Below are positions 29,078 through 39,256 of a stretch of 64,000 bases of DNA, one piece after another. Positions within the stretch are counted from its first letter, which is position 1. The number at the start of each line of letters is the position of its first letter. Where the stretch lies: NCBI GenBank assembly GCA_031277215.1, contig JAITMR010000042.1, positions 52,781 through 116,780 of the forward strand, in the 5' to 3' direction. Position numbers and translations under genes: made by a program. This DNA comes from Burkholderiales bacterium (lineage in GTDB: Bacteria > Pseudomonadota > Gammaproteobacteria > Burkholderiales > Casimicrobiaceae). Below the pieces are notes generated by a model. It did not search any database. It was not told the DNA's origin and saw only the letters and a list, made by a program, of their open reading frames with translations.

Positions 29078-29722
29078 GATGACTTTTTCTCGAAAGAAAA
29101 ACGCGCCCATTATAGCGAACACATCTCCGTGCGAAAGGTTTTCCAGGCGTTGTTTGCCCATTAGGGAGCCTTTGAATAATTCGACGATTCAACCCCACCT
29201 CCTCTCTAACCCTCTCCCCCGACCAAAATTTCTTCGGGGACAGGCTCTTGAAGGGGAGGGAAGCAAGGGGCGAGTTGTGGTTGCCCGTTTTTCTTTTGCG
29301 ATGAAAATGGATGCAAACGAAGTATTCAGAGGTTTCTTAACCCACCGTTCCCGCGAGGTCGCGTTTCATGAAATAAAGTGAAACGCTGCTCATTTCGTTT
29401 TGTTGTTTGCCAACAAAATTAATTTATACCAAATGTTAAATTGCTCGCCTCTCTACAGAGACAACCTCTAAAAAAACACTTTCTCATGCTTTTTTTGAGA
29501 GATAAATTTGAGAATGACGCACTCTGTTGCTGTTTTACAAATCGAAATGAAAACTAATGTTACATGGGATTGACAGTGCAAGTCATTAAAAGCATGATTT
29601 TCTAAAAAAAGCGGATAGAAAGTATTTGTTGAAATAAAAGTCGTTAGTCAAGCGGTGAGATTGCGCGTCAAATTGATTGGTGCGAGCTATATAAAACAAG
29701 TTTTCCGGATAGGGAGTGTCAA

Positions 29723-30157
29723 ATGAAGCATCGGCGAGAGTCAGGCTTTACGTTGGTTGAGGTGATGGTTACGGTAGCCATCATCGGAATCCTCGCGACA
29801 ATCGCTTATCCCAGCTACAGGGACTACCTTATTCGCGGGCGGATACCTGAGGGGCTGACGCTTTTGTCGAACGAGCGGATCGTGATGGAAAAATTTCTCG
29901 CGGACAACCGGTCATATCAAGTCGGAGGAGTGCATGCCTGTGCGCGTTATCCGGTGAGGACAAAATATTTCGACGTGGCGTGTGACGGCACAGAAACGGC
30001 GCAAACGTATACCCTGCAAGCGACAGGTACCGGCAGTATGGTGAATTTTGATTACACGATAGATCAAACAGGAGACAAAGCGACGGTGAGCCTTGGGGTG
30101 GGATGGACGACGTTTCCTGCCTCATGTTGGGTACTCAAAAGAGACGGGTCTTGCTAG
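29723..30157 (+). CDS. type IV pilin / PilE-like minor pilin
   Basis: ESGFTLVEVMVTVAIIGILATIAYPSYRDYLIRGRIPEG prepilin motif; C-terminal Cys pair. Confidence 0.88.
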   Translation: MKHRRESGFTLVEVMVTVAIIGILATIAYPSYRDYLIRGRIPEGLTLLSNERIVMEKFLADNRSYQVGGVHACARYPVRTKYFDVACDGTETAQTYTLQATGTGSMVNFDYTIDQTGDKATVSLGVGWTTFPASCWVLKRDGSC

Positions 30158-30192: not shown

Positions 30193-30741
30193 ATGAAAGC
30201 AAAACGGTACCCCAAAGGGTTGACGTTGATTGAGTTAATGGTGGCGCTGGCTGTTCTGGCGACGCTGTTGTTTTTGGCGGCACCGTCCATCAGTCAGTAT
30301 CTGGAGGATCGCAAAGTCAGAAATGTCGCCGAGTCTTTCTTTTATGGAATGCAAAAAGCGCGATTGCACGCGGTACGCACAAATATTCAAACTCAGTTTG
30401 CGTGGAGCGGAACGGGATGGATGGTATCGCGGTGTGATAACGGGACTACTCTGGAAACGTTCGACTGGGCACGCTGGTCAACGATTTCTGCCGTTGCTGT
30501 GCCATCAGCGAATACAGAGGTAACGTTTGACGGCGCAGGTAGGGTGGTGTTTCCGGAGCCACCCGCGATCCAGCCACCGGATCGGTTTGATGTTGTCAGC
30601 AACCGGAAGAGCAGCAGATGGACGAGCAGTAGGAGCGACAGTACTCCTCTTCGGGTTGTTGTCGATGGCGGAAGCGGTGTGCGGGTATGCGATCCACAGC
30701 TTCCTTCATCAGACCCGAAGGGATGTAAGGTATTTCCGTAA
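30193..30741 (+). CDS. fimT: GspH/FimT family type IV minor pilin
   Basis: RYPKGLTLIELMVALAVLATLLFLAAPSISQYLEDRKVRNVAESFFYGMQKARLHAV. Confidence 0.83.
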   Translation: MKAKRYPKGLTLIELMVALAVLATLLFLAAPSISQYLEDRKVRNVAESFFYGMQKARLHAVRTNIQTQFAWSGTGWMVSRCDNGTTLETFDWARWSTISAVAVPSANTEVTFDGAGRVVFPEPPAIQPPDRFDVVSNRKSSRWTSSRSDSTPLRVVVDGGSGVRVCDPQLPSSDPKGCKVFP

Positions 30742-30808
30742 GTAAAGATGGCAGGTTGTTTGTTAAAGCGTCGCGGGTGATAGAAAAAACTATAAAGAGG
30801 TGAAAAAA

Positions 30809-31303
30809 ATGAATATTTTGAAGCAAAAACAGGGAAAACCGCTCGTGAAAATGCAAGGCGCTACGCTGGTAGAAGTGCTGGTTTCCGTGTTGATTTTCTC
30901 CTGTGGAATGCTGGCGATTGCCGGATTACAGGCGGAATCTTTCAAAAGCACGGGGGGTGTCCAGTATCGGGCGGAAGCCATTCATCTGGTGAGCGCGTAC
31001 GTAGGAAAGATAAAGGCAGTGGCTCCTCCCGCTGCCGATGGGGGCATGGCGACTGCGGCGGCTCAAGCGCCCTTTGTGCCGGGGGGAACTGAATTCGTTT
31101 TTTTCGAAAACGAGCTGACGGGGAAGTTGCCGGGAGCGAGTACGCCTACGGTTGATTTCACTCCCGACTCTTGCGCGGTGACGCTTCCGGTGGGGTCGAG
31201 TTGTGTTGACATTACAGTAACGTGGAATCCGGCAGGGGAAAAATATGCAGGGGGAGACACAGCCCACAGGTACACGCAGACCAGCGTTATTGGAAGCAAC
31301 TGA
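30809..31303 (+). CDS. pilV: type IV pilus modification protein PilV
   Basis: MQGATLVEVLVSVLIFSCGMLAIAGLQAESFKST; operon position. Confidence 0.82.
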   Translation: MNILKQKQGKPLVKMQGATLVEVLVSVLIFSCGMLAIAGLQAESFKSTGGVQYRAEAIHLVSAYVGKIKAVAPPAADGGMATAAAQAPFVPGGTEFVFFENELTGKLPGASTPTVDFTPDSCAVTLPVGSSCVDITVTWNPAGEKYAGGDTAHRYTQTSVIGSN

Positions 31304-31368: not shown

Positions 31369-32433
31369 ATGCGACAAGACAAGCGACAAAAAGGGTTTTC
31401 TCTTGTTGAGCTGATGGTCGGTGTGGTTGTTGGCATGCTGGCGATTTATGCGAGCTACCGTATCTTTGAAAATGTTGAAACGAATTACCGCGCAACGGAA
31501 ACGACCAATGAAGTGCAGATGGCAGGGCTTTATGCGACCTTCGCCGTCAGTCAGGAATTGAGCAATGCTGGCGCTGGGGTGATGAGCAATTTTGAGAGCC
31601 TTCGGGCGTGTCCAGCGATGCCTTTCCCGACTGCTGGGGCAACCAGTTCCAATCTTTCTTTGTATCCGCTTCCTGCGGCGATCATTCCTACTGATGATGA
31701 ATTTTTGGACGATCTTTTCGCCTTTTACGGTACAGGACGTTTCACCGATTTGCCGATGTCGGTAATCGCTGTTGATCCGTCCGGAGTAAAGCTTTCCTTG
31801 CAAGCGCCTTTGGGGCTGATGGCGGGAAGCGTTTTGGTTGCGGCAACAGGGGGTTGCGCAGCCTTTTCAGCTGATGGTGTAACGGTGCCCGATAGCAATG
31901 GGGTGATAACCGTGACGGTTGGCGCAGGGCAGTCATTGGCAGGTGTAGTGAGCGCTGGAAATTCTCTGATCGATCTGGGGAACGCGGTCAGGCGTCGTTT
32001 TTTCGTCGATGGAAACGAAACGCTGCAAATGCAGGTATGGCAAGTTAATTCTTCTGTAGGCAACAACAACTGGCATGTGACAAGAACCATTCCGATAGCT
32101 TCGAACGTCGTCGCTTTCAAGGCGCAGTACGGTGTCGCATCGGTTCCGGGCAAAGCCGTTGATACGTGGATGGCTCCCGACGCGACGACGCTGGATCAGA
32201 TCGTGGGGGGCACGCCATCGGTGCGAGACATCAAGGCGGTACGTTTCGGGATGATCGTGCGTGCGGCCGAGCCGGATCCCACGCTGGCAGGCGCTCCGAA
32301 CTATACGGAAACTCTTTTGGGGGGGAGTGTCAGTGTCCCACTAACGGTATCGGAAGGCAGTCCGCCGTTGTTTGGATGGCGCTACCGTAAATACGAAACA
32401 ACAGTCGCGTTACAAAACACGATTTGGAATTAG
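31369..32433 (+). CDS. pilW: PilW family type IV pilus protein
   Basis: KGFSLVELMVGVVVGMLAIYASYRIFENVETNYRATETTNEVQMAG; operon position. Confidence 0.85.
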   Translation: MRQDKRQKGFSLVELMVGVVVGMLAIYASYRIFENVETNYRATETTNEVQMAGLYATFAVSQELSNAGAGVMSNFESLRACPAMPFPTAGATSSNLSLYPLPAAIIPTDDEFLDDLFAFYGTGRFTDLPMSVIAVDPSGVKLSLQAPLGLMAGSVLVAATGGCAAFSADGVTVPDSNGVITVTVGAGQSLAGVVSAGNSLIDLGNAVRRRFFVDGNETLQMQVWQVNSSVGNNNWHVTRTIPIASNVVAFKAQYGVASVPGKAVDTWMAPDATTLDQIVGGTPSVRDIKAVRFGMIVRAAEPDPTLAGAPNYTETLLGGSVSVPLTVSEGSPPLFGWRYRKYETTVALQNTIWN

Positions 32434-32447
32434 GAAGAGGTTTCCTG

Positions 32448-33035
32448 ATGAACCGGTTTTTTTATACTCATAAAACGCAAAGAGTGCGCCATTCAGAGCG
32501 GGGGATGGTGTTGATCGTCACGCTGCTCATACTGGTAGCGATGCTGCTTGTATCGACGGCATTGCTGCGTTCGAGCGACACCTCTGTTCAGGTTGTCAGC
32601 AACCTGTCTTTTCGTCAGGCGGCGGAAGCGCCGACAAATATAGCCGTGGAGCGGGTTATTCGGGACTTCTCGGATTTTAACGTTGGAGCATTAACAAGTC
32701 TTCCCGATCATTTTTATGGTCGGCGGCAAACCGACGAAAGCCCCGAGGGTATTCCGCAGCTATTGCTTACCAGACGCACGGCGCCGGGAAGTGGCTATGG
32801 CTTTATCCCAGTTTCCGACATGAATGTGAGCTATGTTGTTGAGCGGATGTGCGCTGACGACAGTCCGCCGACGGCGACCAACTGCATGTTGAGCAGTGGC
32901 GGGAGCGCGGCGGTAGAGAACCACAATGATGCTGAAATAGGGGCAGCGGGCGGCGCAGGAGTGGTGCACCGCGTTTCCATTCGCGTTGATGGCGTCAGGG
33001 AAACGACGGTTTTCGCGCAGGCATTCATCAATTAG
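32448..33035 (+). CDS. pilX: PilX family type IV pilus assembly protein
   Basis: RHSERGMVLIVTLLILVAMLLVSTALLRSSDTSVQVVSNLSFRQAAEAPTNIAVERV; operon position. Confidence 0.83.
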   Translation: MNRFFYTHKTQRVRHSERGMVLIVTLLILVAMLLVSTALLRSSDTSVQVVSNLSFRQAAEAPTNIAVERVIRDFSDFNVGALTSLPDHFYGRRQTDESPEGIPQLLLTRRTAPGSGYGFIPVSDMNVSYVVERMCADDSPPTATNCMLSSGGSAAVENHNDAEIGAAGGAGVVHRVSIRVDGVRETTVFAQAFIN

Positions 33036-33098: not shown

Positions 33099-36000
33099 AT
33101 GAAACGATTAAAACGGTTTGAGATTTCCGGAAATCCGTTTCTGGTAGCGTTGCTGGGAGCGGCGCTTGCGTTTGCGACTCCCTCTTTTGCGACGAATTCG
33201 CCGGTCGATATCGCGGACGAGCCGGTGTTCGTGGATATCAAGAGCCTTGTTCCGACGAACATCGTGTTTCTTGCGGATGATTCAGGAAGTATGACCTGGA
33301 CACATGCGCCGGAAGGGCTTGGCGATGTCGAGAGGGCGTGTTGGCGGGGCGCAGATGGCGTGATCGGCGGCGTTTTTCTTTGCTCTCCCTCTGATCCGCA
33401 ATGCCGGATCATGGACGTTTGCGGCTACCCGTACCCCAACCCGTATCCCGGCATTGCTGGAGGATACCCGTCTCTCTCGGAACTCCGCGTCTCGTCCGAA
33501 GAGGAAGTTGCGGTAAAACTGGTTCCACCACCGTTGATGGCCGCCGGATTTAACAGGATGGCGTACCACCCGGAAGTGACCTATGAGCCGCCGGTTTACG
33601 GTAGGGTTTACGGCGTAGATGTAGAGGGCAAAATTAAAGTTGTTGAACTGCTGCATCTTCCGTCAATGGGCAGCAGTCGTTGGAACCAAGTCGGCTGGCC
33701 GGAGGAATTTTCCACAAGTGAAGGCGTGATAAGCCGCCCCGTGGGCGCTCCCGTCGTAGTCAACATGAGAGGCGTGACAACGCGGTTTCCGCAAGCGCGC
33801 ACCTATTTGCCGGATCAGCGTTTTTCGTTGCAGCTAAGGTACATGAGCGGGTCAAGCAATCTGGCAGAGCTGACGGATGTCATGCCCATGCATTACTTTA
33901 AAACCAAAGTGAAGTGGTGCCGGTATTATCAGTCCCGCACACCAACGCCGGACGGAAATCCGGTAACGCCGGACGCGTTTTATGAGGGGACTTTGTATCT
34001 GGGGTCTGCCTCTCCTCAGTATTGTCAGGATGATCGTACAGAGGTGTACAAATATCCGTACTATTACAATCCCCGGCTGGATGGCAATGCGGCATACCCT
34101 GCCTGGAGCCATATGCACACCCCGTCCTTTGAGCTGGTCGTTTTGGACTATGCAAACGAGACAGTGAAAGGCGCGGTGGGCAATACGGCAGGCCGTGTAG
34201 AGCATACTTGGCGCGATGAAAACGGCGTGTTGCAGACGGTAAGCCGGACGCATCGGGAAGAGCTTGAAAACTACGCCAACTGGTACGCCTATTACAGCAA
34301 CCGAACGGCGGCAACGCGAACGGTGGCAAGCTTCGCGCTGGCGGGGATTGAACCGGATCGCTGGTTGAGGTTGGGCTTTGCGACGGTCAATAAAGCTGCC
34401 GTGGGCAACATAGGCACATTAACAGAGGTAAAAGAAAATGACCCGGCGTTGGCGGGAGCCAAATTCGATACTTACAAGGCGCTTCTTGAACATGGCGTGA
34501 CTCCTGAAAACAAGGGAACACCGCTCAAAACAGCCTTGCATGAGATTCGCAGGGAGTTTGATGCGAATAGGGGCAAGGAAAGGAGCTTTATCATTCATTC
34601 CTGCCAACGGAACTATGTGGTCGCGCTGACCGATGGCGGGTGGAATGACGCCGCTGGCAATAGTTATAACTATTCAGGAGTAACAACAGCAGTCAATAAT
34701 CAGGATCGGACGGTTCAGTCAGCTCCGCCTCGTGCAGTGAACGTGTTTGGCGTTGATCTTGTAGCGGGCATGCTCTGGCCGAAGCCGATACTGGAAGGCG
34801 AATTGGCCTCCAATACACTCTCCGATGTCTCGCTCTACGCCTGGTTGAATGAATTGCGTAAAGACGATCAAAGATTTGATGTCGATCTGACGGCGAACGA
34901 TCCGGCCAGTTGGAAACACATCAATACCCTTGCATTGGCTTATGCGGTTGAAGGAACCCTGTCGGCCAGGAACCCCAAAAAGACGCTCGCAGAAATCGCC
35001 AGTGGCGCGGCTGAATGGCCGGTGCCCTATCCGGTCAGAAACACGAACCCCTCCACTTCACACTTGTGGCGGAGGGCGGTTGATGACTTGTGGCATGCGG
35101 CGATTTCTGGCTTTGGCGTTTTCACGGCGGGCATTGCGCCGCGCGATTTCACAAAAGCCATAGACACCGGGCACGGAGGCATGGTTGGGCTGGACGTTAT
35201 CAGCCGTGGCGGAACGTTCGCGGAACTGGGGTTGCCTTTGTCGAGAGACCTGGATATGAACGGGATGTATGGCTACAGCGCCAGCTTTACGCCGAATTAT
35301 GGCGGCACGGTTCAGAAGAGAAGAATCGTGTATCAGAAAGATAGCTTTGAGCCGGGCACATTGGTCTGGGATGCGGCGGTAAGGTTGGCGGAAGATGTGC
35401 AAGGAAGTTCGGCTCCTCTTCTGGGGCGAAATATCTTTACCGGAGAGGGAATAAGCGGGATGCCGTTTCTTTACGATAGCTTGCCGCCAGGATACCGTGC
35501 TCACCTCGGAGCGAATTCGACGGCTCAGCAGGAAGTCATCAATTACCTCCGAGGAGACAGGAGCCAGGAAGAAAACCTTATCGGAGGAAAGTATCGCCAA
35601 AGGCCGGCACTTTTGGGCGACTTCGTTCACGCTTCTCCGGCGGTCGTGGATAGGCCGTGGTTTCAGTACACCGACCCAGGCTATGAGAGCTTCAAAAAGA
35701 ATAATCTCCGAAAAAAGATGATTTACGCGGCAGGGAACGACGGCATGTTGCACGCCTTTGACGACGAAAACGGGAAAGAGTTGTGGGCGTTTATTCCTCC
35801 CGATCTTTTCCGGAGCGAGGCAGACAGAGGGATTATCAACCTGACACACTCCAGAGAAGGCGACCCTCGCTGGCAGCATTATTTCTATGTTGACGCAACC
35901 CCGCGCGTCGTTGATGTTGATATCAACCCCAATCCTGACGTCTATGACTGGAGAACCATGCTAATCGGCGGCATGGGCAAAGGCGGCACCTCGTACTACG

Positions 36001-37181
36001 CGCTTGATATTACGAGAGGGGATCTGCCAACAGGGGCGCAAGGCTCAGGCCTGTTCAAATGGACATTCACCGATGACAACATGGGATTTACCTATGGCCG
36101 CGCATTGATGCTGAAAACAAGAGCGACCGATCCGAAATTTAAAGGGAAATGGGTAGCCATTTTTCCATCCGGCCTTAACAACGGGACGGGCGGCATCGCT
36201 CAGGCCAAACCCGCCAGCGCAAGAGGAGGGGATGGCAAAGGCCGCATCTTCTTCGTCGATCTTGTGACGGGAGAAAAACTTCATGAAATCATAACGGACG
36301 CAGGAACGGATACCGCGCCCAGCGGTCTGGTGTACATCCGGGCTTTTGTAGAGAGTTCCAGAAACCAGCTTGCGGATGCGGTTTATGGTGGCGACCAGTT
36401 GGGGAATTTCTGGCGTTTCGATCTGACCTCGCAAGACTACACAGAATGGAAAGCGGTCAAGCTGGCGGTGCTTGAAAATGACCGAGGAACCCTCTTGCCT
36501 GTCAATACGGAACCTCGGATGGAGATCACATACGGCAACGGAAGCGCGGAACGCTGGGTCATGATAGGAACCGGTCGTTCTTATCATGAATCAGACCTTT
36601 ACGATTGGGCGGTGAGAAAGTACCCCTCAACAGCCCAGGGCATGTTTGCCTTCAAGGATGGAACGCTGACAGCGCCGGAGCCGGATCTTTCAAAGTTTCC
36701 ATACCGTCGTACCGATCTGGAAGACGTCAGCCTCCTGAGTTCGGGAGGAAGTTTGACAGGAATTGATTCCGGTAAAAAAGGATGGGTTCATTTCTTTGAC
36801 CAGGGATACCAGATCATCACCAATCCGGATTCGTTGGCTGAGCGTATCGCGTATGTGGCCAACCGCTATGTTCCCAGCGCAGAGGACAGGTTGGACGGAC
36901 AGGAAGTGCTGGATGTTTGCGAGACATCACCGTTTGAAGCGACTATTTACGAGCGGCATGTGTCAGGCGTTCTTTTGTTCAGCCTCGATATCATGAACGA
37001 TGGGCTTGCTTCGGTGAATTATGTCGGGTTTACGCACGACGGGAAGAGAGCGTTCAGGCTTATGGGGTCAAACAGGCGACAAAACCAGGGGACACGCTTT
37101 TTTGATAATAAGGACATTAACGCCGGAGGTGGTGTGCTTGGTGATCCGAGGCGAAGCAGCATCCGGTTTATCAATCGGTGA
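33099..37181 (+). CDS. pilY1: PilY1/PilC-type pilus tip protein
   Basis: 1360 aa; signal region; VWA-like TNIVFLADDSGSMTW; C-terminal propeller AAGNDGMLHAFDDENGKELWAFIPPDLF, DPRWQHYFYVDATPRVVDVD, GGMGKGGTSYYALDIT. Confidence 0.93.
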   Translation: MKRLKRFEISGNPFLVALLGAALAFATPSFATNSPVDIADEPVFVDIKSLVPTNIVFLADDSGSMTWTHAPEGLGDVERACWRGADGVIGGVFLCSPSDPQCRIMDVCGYPYPNPYPGIAGGYPSLSELRVSSEEEVAVKLVPPPLMAAGFNRMAYHPEVTYEPPVYGRVYGVDVEGKIKVVELLHLPSMGSSRWNQVGWPEEFSTSEGVISRPVGAPVVVNMRGVTTRFPQARTYLPDQRFSLQLRYMSGSSNLAELTDVMPMHYFKTKVKWCRYYQSRTPTPDGNPVTPDAFYEGTLYLGSASPQYCQDDRTEVYKYPYYYNPRLDGNAAYPAWSHMHTPSFELVVLDYANETVKGAVGNTAGRVEHTWRDENGVLQTVSRTHREELENYANWYAYYSNRTAATRTVASFALAGIEPDRWLRLGFATVNKAAVGNIGTLTEVKENDPALAGAKFDTYKALLEHGVTPENKGTPLKTALHEIRREFDANRGKERSFIIHSCQRNYVVALTDGGWNDAAGNSYNYSGVTTAVNNQDRTVQSAPPRAVNVFGVDLVAGMLWPKPILEGELASNTLSDVSLYAWLNELRKDDQRFDVDLTANDPASWKHINTLALAYAVEGTLSARNPKKTLAEIASGAAEWPVPYPVRNTNPSTSHLWRRAVDDLWHAAISGFGVFTAGIAPRDFTKAIDTGHGGMVGLDVISRGGTFAELGLPLSRDLDMNGMYGYSASFTPNYGGTVQKRRIVYQKDSFEPGTLVWDAAVRLAEDVQGSSAPLLGRNIFTGEGISGMPFLYDSLPPGYRAHLGANSTAQQEVINYLRGDRSQEENLIGGKYRQRPALLGDFVHASPAVVDRPWFQYTDPGYESFKKNNLRKKMIYAAGNDGMLHAFDDENGKELWAFIPPDLFRSEADRGIINLTHSREGDPRWQHYFYVDATPRVVDVDINPNPDVYDWRTMLIGGMGKGGTSYYALDITRGDLPTGAQGSGLFKWTFTDDNMGFTYGRALMLKTRATDPKFKGKWVAIFPSGLNNGTGGIAQAKPASARGGDGKGRIFFVDLVTGEKLHEIITDAGTDTAPSGLVYIRAFVESSRNQLADAVYGGDQLGNFWRFDLTSQDYTEWKAVKLAVLENDRGTLLPVNTEPRMEITYGNGSAERWVMIGTGRSYHESDLYDWAVRKYPSTAQGMFAFKDGTLTAPEPDLSKFPYRRTDLEDVSLLSSGGSLTGIDSGKKGWVHFFDQGYQIITNPDSLAERIAYVANRYVPSAEDRLDGQEVLDVCETSPFEATIYERHVSGVLLFSLDIMNDGLASVNYVGFTHDGKRAFRLMGSNRRQNQGTRFFDNKDINAGGGVLGDPRRSSIRFINR

Positions 37182-37252
37182 TTCTCATGCGCGGAAATTG
37201 GAAAGAACGTGATGATGAAAAGCGGCAAGAGTCAGAATTTTGGAGGTGTAAG

Positions 37253-38968
37253 ATGAAACGGTGGACTTCATGGATAGTGTTCTCGTCGCTGGCGATCCTT
37301 CTGAACGGCGTTGCTTGGGCGGATTCCCGCGACTCTGTTTTGCCTGGCCCCAAGCTAAGAGGCCAAGCGGAAGGGCTGGGCGTGGGAAGTTTGATTTCGT
37401 CGGCGGTAATGGCGACGCCTAAAAAAAGCGATGGCACGGGCGGCGATATTGTCGTGTGGGGTTATCGCATGAATGGTCATAGCGGGAATTCTGACTACTA
37501 TCCTTATCCCGGCTACGGAACCACTCAAGTGCGAGGATACGAACACAACTCTGAGGGCGCTCGGAAAGGGCTCCCACGATTTGAAACCGTTAAAGCGTTT
37601 AAAGACACGTCTCACCTGCTTTCTAGCCAGAAAGTCATTCGGTTATTTACAACAGCCCATACGTTGTTCGCGTTAACTGAAGAAGGCGAGTTGTGGGCGT
37701 GGGGCGACAGTCTTCATGGAACGGCGGGTTGTATCAATACCGGCTATGAAGCAAGGGAATACGGTTCTATAGCCGGCACACCTGCTAGCGGACCTCATTA
37801 TCAGTCGCGGCCTTGCCCGGTGTTTGGCACGACAACGCCAACGGCGCAGATCAAGAAAAGAATTGCGTACGTTGACGGCGGGGAATACAACGTGATCGCC
37901 ATTACAAGCGATGGAGACGTTTACACTTGGGGAAGTAACGTTTTTGGGCAAACAACAGGGACAGGCGGAAATAAAACAGCGCCACTAAATATCTCTCATT
38001 ACTTTGTCGATAAAAACGGCGACAAAGAGCGGGTAGTTTTGGTGGGCGGCGCTTACGAGGGGCAATATGCCGTGTCTGTCGATAAAGGGGGTAAATATAC
38101 ATTATGGGGATGGGGAAGAAGCTTTGCTCACGCGCTGGTTAACAAAGGATTCGACGTTTACGTTCGAATGCCGGAGAGGCTGACCCAGTACGACGGCTAC
38201 GCCAAGGATATTGTTTATGTCAACGGGGGCTATGGCTGGACAGGGGCGTTGTTGGCGGATGGGCGTATTGTCGTTTCCGGTTTGTCGCGGCACGTAGGTG
38301 TCGGTGCTAGTGTTGGCGCTGGTGATGGTAATTACTTTTATCAACCGCGGGTGATTATGGGACCGGGTTCGGCATCGAATTGTTGGGATCCCGATGCAGG
38401 GACATCGCGTGAGTGCCCGAGAGCTACGAAATTGATCGCTCGCTACGCGGGAGGCGTTGCTGTTCCTGAGAATGATGATAAAGCGCTTTATACATGGGGG
38501 GGAACCCCCGGTGGTGGTGCGTATTTTCAAGTGTACGGTACTGTGCCAGTGAAGCGAAAACTGGCGGGAAGCCTTAAAAGTGTCGGAGCGACGAAAGAAG
38601 CGGTTTTCTATTTGACAGAAAATAATGAGCTTTATGGTGCTGGCTATGGAGATCAGCGGGTCATCAATGTCTGTAGCAACCGAACAATATCTTGGGATCG
38701 GGAGCGGGTGCGTAATGTCGATAAAAACAGCATGAACTGGGTACGCAGAAAGGCAGACGGTACGGTTTTACATGGAGGGTATCGGATTCCTTATGAAGAT
38801 TGGGTAGACGTTACAGGCAAGGACTACTGTGACGGTACCGCGACAGGGTTTTATGCAGGAATCTCCAGGGATACTGTCAGAAGATGGACAGCTTATGACG
38901 ATGGGCGGGATGGTGCTATCCCAACTAACATTCTTGGGGATGGGGTTTGTCAAAATAATAATTGTTGA
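37253..38968 (+). CDS. secreted RCC1-repeat (beta-propeller) protein, last gene of the type IV pilus operon
   Basis: Signal peptide MKRWTSWIVFSSLAILLNGVAWA; repeats GELWAWGDSLHGTAG, GDVYTWGSNVFGQTTG, YTLWGWGRSFAHAL, GRIVVSGLSRHVGVG, ALYTWGGTPGGG, ELYGAGYGDQ; SD GGAGGTG before ATG 37253. Confidence 0.85.
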   Translation: MKRWTSWIVFSSLAILLNGVAWADSRDSVLPGPKLRGQAEGLGVGSLISSAVMATPKKSDGTGGDIVVWGYRMNGHSGNSDYYPYPGYGTTQVRGYEHNSEGARKGLPRFETVKAFKDTSHLLSSQKVIRLFTTAHTLFALTEEGELWAWGDSLHGTAGCINTGYEAREYGSIAGTPASGPHYQSRPCPVFGTTTPTAQIKKRIAYVDGGEYNVIAITSDGDVYTWGSNVFGQTTGTGGNKTAPLNISHYFVDKNGDKERVVLVGGAYEGQYAVSVDKGGKYTLWGWGRSFAHALVNKGFDVYVRMPERLTQYDGYAKDIVYVNGGYGWTGALLADGRIVVSGLSRHVGVGASVGAGDGNYFYQPRVIMGPGSASNCWDPDAGTSRECPRATKLIARYAGGVAVPENDDKALYTWGGTPGGGAYFQVYGTVPVKRKLAGSLKSVGATKEAVFYLTENNELYGAGYGDQRVINVCSNRTISWDRERVRNVDKNSMNWVRRKADGTVLHGGYRIPYEDWVDVTGKDYCDGTATGFYAGISRDTVRRWTAYDDGRDGAIPTNILGDGVCQNNNC

Positions 38969-38997: not shown

Positions 38998-39024
38998 TAG
39001 AGGGAGGGTGGCGTTCTCCCTCTA
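38998..39024 (+). terminator. terminator-like hairpin after the pilus operon
   Basis: TAGAGGGAG-N9-CTCCCTCTA perfect 9-bp stem; weak T-tract. Confidence 0.45.
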
Positions 39025-39076: not shown

Positions 39077-39190
39077 TTATAGTGAATCGCATACTTTTAT
39101 ACCTTGTTGGCCTTGTCGTACTACCTGCACTGTCTGCCTTCACGGCTTTATCTGGCCGCCTCGTCTAAAAATTGACGCGATTCACTATAA
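39077..39190. mobile_element. Correia-like MITE
   Basis: 14-bp perfect terminal inverted repeats TTATAGTGAATCGC / GCGATTCACTATAA; interior CCTTGTCGTACTACCTGCACTGTCTGCCTTCACGGC resembles the neisserial Correia element core. Confidence 0.65.
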
Positions 39191-39256
39191 GGCTATATTG
39201 GCCGCGCTCTTTTTATGCGAACGGTCTTTTCAAGACCGAACGAAACACGTCGTATA

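Follow-up and report, generated by a model that had tools for sequence, protein, structure and literature searches.

An exported RCC1-type propeller protein linked to one type of PilY1, a candidate accessory of a type IV pilus tip in a genus of Burkholderiales

The window analyzed here, a stretch of 64,000 nucleotides from a genome of Burkholderiales (family Casimicrobiaceae), holds a minor-pilin/pilY1 cluster whose last gene encodes P0001, an exported and probably disulfide-stabilized RCC1-type propeller protein. Judged by comparison across the genus, its pairing with pilY1 is not accidental, and the protein probably serves one pilus tip, as a component or helper dedicated to it and specific to this lineage. 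We give a probability of about 0.5 to the reading that it is a tip accessory dedicated to one PilY1 subtype, serving as a second propeller, or binding module, at the tip.

Structure of the RCC1 protein

The RCC1 gene lies on the forward strand at 37253..38968, with an ATG at 37253 and a stop codon at 38966-38968, and its 571-residue product was characterized by Pfam, PDB search, AlphaFold2, and Foldseek. Residues 1-23 (37253..37321, +) form a signal peptide, as the initial annotation had held; by inspection of the sequence it is of the Sec type, reads MKRWTSWIVFSSLAILLNGVAWA, and would be cleaved after A23, ahead of DS (...GVAWA/DS). A23 is invariant among relatives. No prepilin N-terminal signal (GFTLxE), no N_methyl or prepilin match, and no Pfam match to the PilY1 propeller (PF05567) was found in P0001.

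The RCC1 repeats that had been read from the sequence are matched by the Pfam model RCC1_2 (PF13540; E=7e-12, 45 bits against a cut-off of 22), and the RCC1-like domain PF25390 is matched with E=4e-21 at 76 bits, below its own curated cut-off of 150. PDB sequence matches were all to RCC1-fold proteins, with HERC2 best (E=2e-14), and RCC1 proteins came top in a PHROGs search. Structure prediction bore out the propeller fold as well. In an AlphaFold2 model built from ten homologs (pTM 0.76, mean pLDDT 69), residues 51-466 (37403..38650, +) make up a seven-bladed RCC1-type beta-propeller, of which six blades are complete and the seventh is completed by strands near residues 42-69. The N-terminus and the tail of the model are of low confidence, and pLDDT falls below 50 in the signal peptide, some insertions, and the region after residue 528. 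A Foldseek comparison with the PDB ranks UVR8 first (E=1e-20, target TM 0.74) and RCC1, RPGR, and HERC2 next, with an identity to RCC1 structures of 13-16%. The initial count of six to seven repeat units is right as to the repeats, but the protein is better described as seven blades with long insertions; it is because of these insertions that the Pfam repeat models score weakly. The number of cysteines is even, 8 in P0001 and 6 in the protein of a relative (G003), and several positions are conserved, a pattern that fits extracytoplasmic disulfides.

The C-terminal tail, residues 470-571 (38660..38965, +), has low pLDDT and is conserved in pilus-linked proteins. Within the genus, these approximately 90 residues, with the motifs KNSMNW, GGYRIPYE, and WTxYDDGRDGP, are found in pilus-linked RCC1 proteins only; the nearest RCC1 relatives in the genus, among them the RCC1 domain that closes a VWA7-type protein of G000, stop just past the last blade and have no tail. 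Mean identity among six close members is 53% in the tail versus 60% in the propeller. The Cys-containing end noted initially is present as C566 and C571 and has counterparts in G002, G003, G008, and G009; it is missing from the G007 protein, which has an earlier stop. Searches of Pfam and the PDB gave no match to the tail. Because it occurs only where the RCC1 gene adjoins pilY1, the tail is a natural candidate for docking, and its distribution suggests that it docks the pilus-linked RCC1 protein.

Operon and transcription signals

By Pfam, the genes upstream are minor pilins and pilY1, so that the RCC1 gene is, as first proposed, the last of a minor-pilin/pilY1 cluster. In order, all on the forward strand, these are a pilE/ComP-like pilin gene (29723..30157; PF16732, E=9e-10), a fimT/GspH-like minor pilin gene (30193..30741; PF12019, PF07963), a pilV-like gene (30800..31303; TIGR02523, E=7e-9, below cut-off), pilW (31372..32433; PF16074, E=8e-9), a pilX-like minor pilin gene (32448..33035; PF14341, E=7e-4, below its curated cut-off) that is conserved in the operons of relatives, and pilY1 (33099..37181; 1360 aa), whose beta-propeller match lies at residues 839-1112 (PF05567, E=3e-19). 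The genome encodes two secretins and several PilB/PilT-type ATPases and therefore plausibly a type IV pilus machine.

The spacing and signals described initially stand: 71 bp separate the pilY1 stop from the start of the co-oriented RCC1 gene, which is preceded by a good Shine-Dalgarno sequence, GGAGGT (37242..37247, +). A consensus scan found no promoter-like match in the pilY1-RCC1 gap. Upstream of the first pilin gene, a candidate sigma-70 promoter (29570..29598, +) is a consensus match only, and such matches are no more numerous in the region than in shuffled sequence. The hairpin reported after the RCC1 gene is present at approximately 38998..39024 (+), but its T-tract is poor and its folding modest (z=-1.5). 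A hairpin with a similarly weaker T-tract follows the gene in G007, and hairpin-plus-T terminators follow it in G002, G004, and G009. Across the seven genomes that carry the pair, no terminator-like sequence was seen between the two genes outside an insertion in G003. On these observations, the two genes are likely to be co-transcribed.

Two further elements were observed in this genome (G000). At 39078-39192 of the window is a 115-bp element whose ends, TATAGTGAATCGC...GCGATTCACTATA, are imperfectly inverted; it resembles a MITE-type repeat and has about six more near-full copies (72-82% identity) on other contigs. On contig G000:C21 (L050 6936-9147, - strand), a pilX-pilW-pilV set that no pilY1 follows lies near a U32-peptidase-like gene, a relative of which directly follows a pilY1 in G003 (L053); the set is probably a remnant of a further minor-pilin/pilY1 operon.

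Conservation of the pilY1-RCC1 pair in the genus

A neighborhood survey upheld the link to the pilus operon. An RCC1 gene lies directly 3' of pilY1 on the same strand in G000, G002, G003, G004, G007, G008, and G009, that is, at all seven intact loci of this PilY1 clade in genomes of the genus, versus none of 17 readable pilY1 loci of other types. A PilY1 fragment of the RCC1-linked type in G010 (G010:C65) is cut by the contig end and stands outside this count. G005 (73% complete) and G006 (87% complete) have PilY1s of other types only, and no PilY1 match was found in G001 (76% complete). The genes flanking the pair vary among most of the seven genomes, placing it in several chromosomal settings, and the gap within it stays at 51-81 bp except in G003. 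There it is 295 bp long (L023 10811-11105) and holds a repeat-rich insertion, with an ATCAGGA run and hairpin repeats, that is absent from the other six genomes.

Identities to the window copies of RCC1 and PilY1, respectively, are 77% and 70% in G003, 66% and 50% in G009, 58% and 46% in G008, 58% and 56% in G002, 56% and 58% in G007, and 35% and 41% in G004. Between G000 and G003 the RCC1 gene has a dN of 0.15, versus 0.22 for pilY1, and a dS of 0.9-1.2, which is near saturation; by this comparison it is under purifying selection. In a tree of 25 PilY1s, the seven RCC1-linked proteins fall on one side of a branch with support of 100/99. As they form one clade, a single gain suffices; because the link arose once, its phylogenetic replication is limited. 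A conflict between the RCC1 and PilY1 trees was considered and rejected, the differences not being significant on the RCC1 side (p-AU 0.10-0.22). By Pfam, none of six paralogs tested is an RCC1/PilY1 fusion.

Several pilY1 loci are present per genome in the genus, and genomes of only some 2 Mb can hold three or more distinct minor-pilin/PilY1 operons. Elsewhere in the order, two genomes of another family, G240 and G209, encode PilY1 proteins of about 3,100 residues (L115 1600-10998 and L119 1252-10617, respectively).

Distribution outside the genus

That RCC1 proteins are not a standard component of this operon, as had been remarked at the outset, agrees with the surveys: none of about 80 pilY1 loci of other genera carries one. 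Roughly one in ten of the 250 genomes sampled from the order encodes an RCC1 protein. In 26 stretches with flanks of up to 10 kb, holding 26 PilY1-like genes from RCC1-bearing genomes of other genera in the order and a few related ones, no RCC1 gene was found near pilY1, and none was found downstream of pilY1 in 60 stretches (57 readable) from other genomes of the class. The idea that an RCC1 gene beside pilY1 is a common arrangement was thus rejected for the genomes surveyed in the order and class. In the readable stretches from the class, pilY1 was often followed by a gene for a prepilin or for a small protein encoded in the same direction, in many cases exported by its looks.

When 274 genomes of the class were searched with a profile of the pilus-linked RCC1 family, no full-length ortholog turned up outside the window's own genome. 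A scan of one genome for each of 84,980 species yielded just five proteins of this group, every one from a metagenome-assembled genome (MAG). On these searches, the orthologous group is restricted to the genus. Several of the five MAGs, judged by bin names (e.g., Cu122 and Lab288), come from higher-termite gut projects; the names appear to tie them to PMC7024585, and the genus would accordingly be one of host-associated termite-gut bacteria.

The association with pili holds for the tailed type, which occurs at pilus loci only, but RCC1 domains of the same family are also found in non-pilus proteins. A 1,218-residue protein in G000:C62 (L032 10810-14466, - strand) combines VWA7 N-terminal, VWA, hemicentin-type, and Ig-like domains with a C-terminal RCC1 propeller of this family, and the architecture is repeated in G007:C29.

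Discussion

An RCC1 propeller in type IV pili has been published once, as a pilin fusion. The T4P-2 minor pilin PilX2 of Saccharibacteria TM7x (Nanosynbacter lyticus) carries a hepta-bladed RCC1-repeat propeller. When PilX2 is deleted, the share of host cells bound drops from 10.6% to 4.6%; a role as tip adhesin was proposed by the authors (PMC12206443). Compared by description, P0001 is likewise an RCC1 propeller tied to a type IV pilus. Unlike PilX2, in which the propeller is the C-terminal part on a pilin stalk, P0001 stands alone as a protein exported via Sec and bearing a tail of its own, and its gene, in a betaproteobacterium, adjoins that of a complete PilY1. Accessory proteins that serve the PilY1 of a single cluster are also already known. 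TfcP is encoded in one of three minor-pilin/PilY1 clusters of Myxococcus (cluster_1); it remains outside the pilus and, when calcium is low, stabilizes its PilY1 in the periplasm (PMC8833165). Like TfcP of M. xanthus, P0001 is an extra exported protein of a single cluster, conserved with its PilY1 type (PMC8833165, PMC13190605); unlike P0001, TfcP has a cytochrome c fold, is encoded upstream of pilY1, and has been shown to reside in the periplasm, not in pili. Our literature search turned up no stand-alone RCC1 propeller tied to a single PilY1 type.

The slot after pilY1 is occupied in many gammaproteobacteria by PilE or by small proteins that we take to be PilY2-type; unlike P0001, these have about 100-150 residues and no propeller. 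The seven-bladed fold is shared with UVR8, RCC1, RPGR, and HERC2 domains at identities of about 13-20%, with no shared function known. Bacterial BLIP-II also belongs to the RCC1 superfamily.

We infer that, in a genus of gut symbionts keeping several different pilus tips, the RCC1 protein would be made, most likely, from the minor-pilin/pilY1 transcript and exported to the periplasm via Sec. The conserved tail could then dock it onto the PilY1/minor-pilin tip complex, where the propeller might serve as an additional module for binding a ligand or recognizing a surface. We favor this reading, with two propellers at the tip, because the RCC1 fold and the PilX2 case argue for it. More tentatively, the RCC1 propeller could be permanently tail-docked on PilY1, a two-propeller arrangement that would give one of several interchangeable tips in a cell its own binding specificity.

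A possible, if doubtful, alternative is that the RCC1 protein helps its PilY1 to assemble, or keeps it stable, in the periplasm; it would bind PilY1 before incorporation and, like TfcP, never become part of the pilus. The genetic logic is the same, a Sec-exported protein in one of several minor-pilin/PilY1 clusters and absent from the rest (PMC8833165), and in gammaproteobacteria the gene after pilY1 often encodes a small, apparently exported protein of about 100-130 residues. Conservation argues somewhat in the same direction. The tip adhesin is often the most variable part of a pilus; the RCC1 protein roughly equals PilY1 in conservation or exceeds it, which would suit a scaffold or chaperone no less than an adhesin. 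The PilY1s of the clade are without a canonical DxDxDG calcium loop at the usual place and might need help with stability, but this loss does not track the RCC1 gene. Compensation by RCC1 for a lost calcium site was rejected, as the loop is equally degenerate in most other PilY1s, both in the genus and across the order. The size of the propeller and its long variable insertions, moreover, look more like those of a binding module than of a small chaperone.

It is improbable that the protein merely shares transcription with the pilus operon and has its own job, such as binding the gut surface or a soluble ligand. The genus does have RCC1 proteins away from pili, such as the VWA7-type protein with a C-terminal RCC1 domain, and GC3 differs between the RCC1 gene (0.49) and pilY1 (0.60). 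However, seven diverged genomes retain the RCC1 gene beside pilY1 of a single clade, across several settings, and the tail is specific to the pilus-linked copies. Legionella RCC1-repeat effectors act on the Ran cycle, and the fold and the host association suggested by the MAG names would suit a secreted effector on a eukaryotic target, but such a role is very hard to credit for a protein with a Sec signal peptide and Cys pairs, linked to a pilus tip set and not to an effector secretion system, whose fold alone does not predict Ran binding and whose identity to RCC1 itself is only 13-16%.

PilY1 tip complexes are generally regarded as conserved, their diversity residing in the N-terminal domain of PilY1. 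Together with PilX2, P0001 suggests that type IV pili may have acquired RCC1 propellers on more than one occasion. If it is indeed a second propeller on one of several tip sets, then tips would also be diversified by the addition of a subunit, and a cell whose PilY1 types include some that have this partner and some that lack it would offer a clean natural contrast for studying how a pilus tip acquires a new binding specificity.
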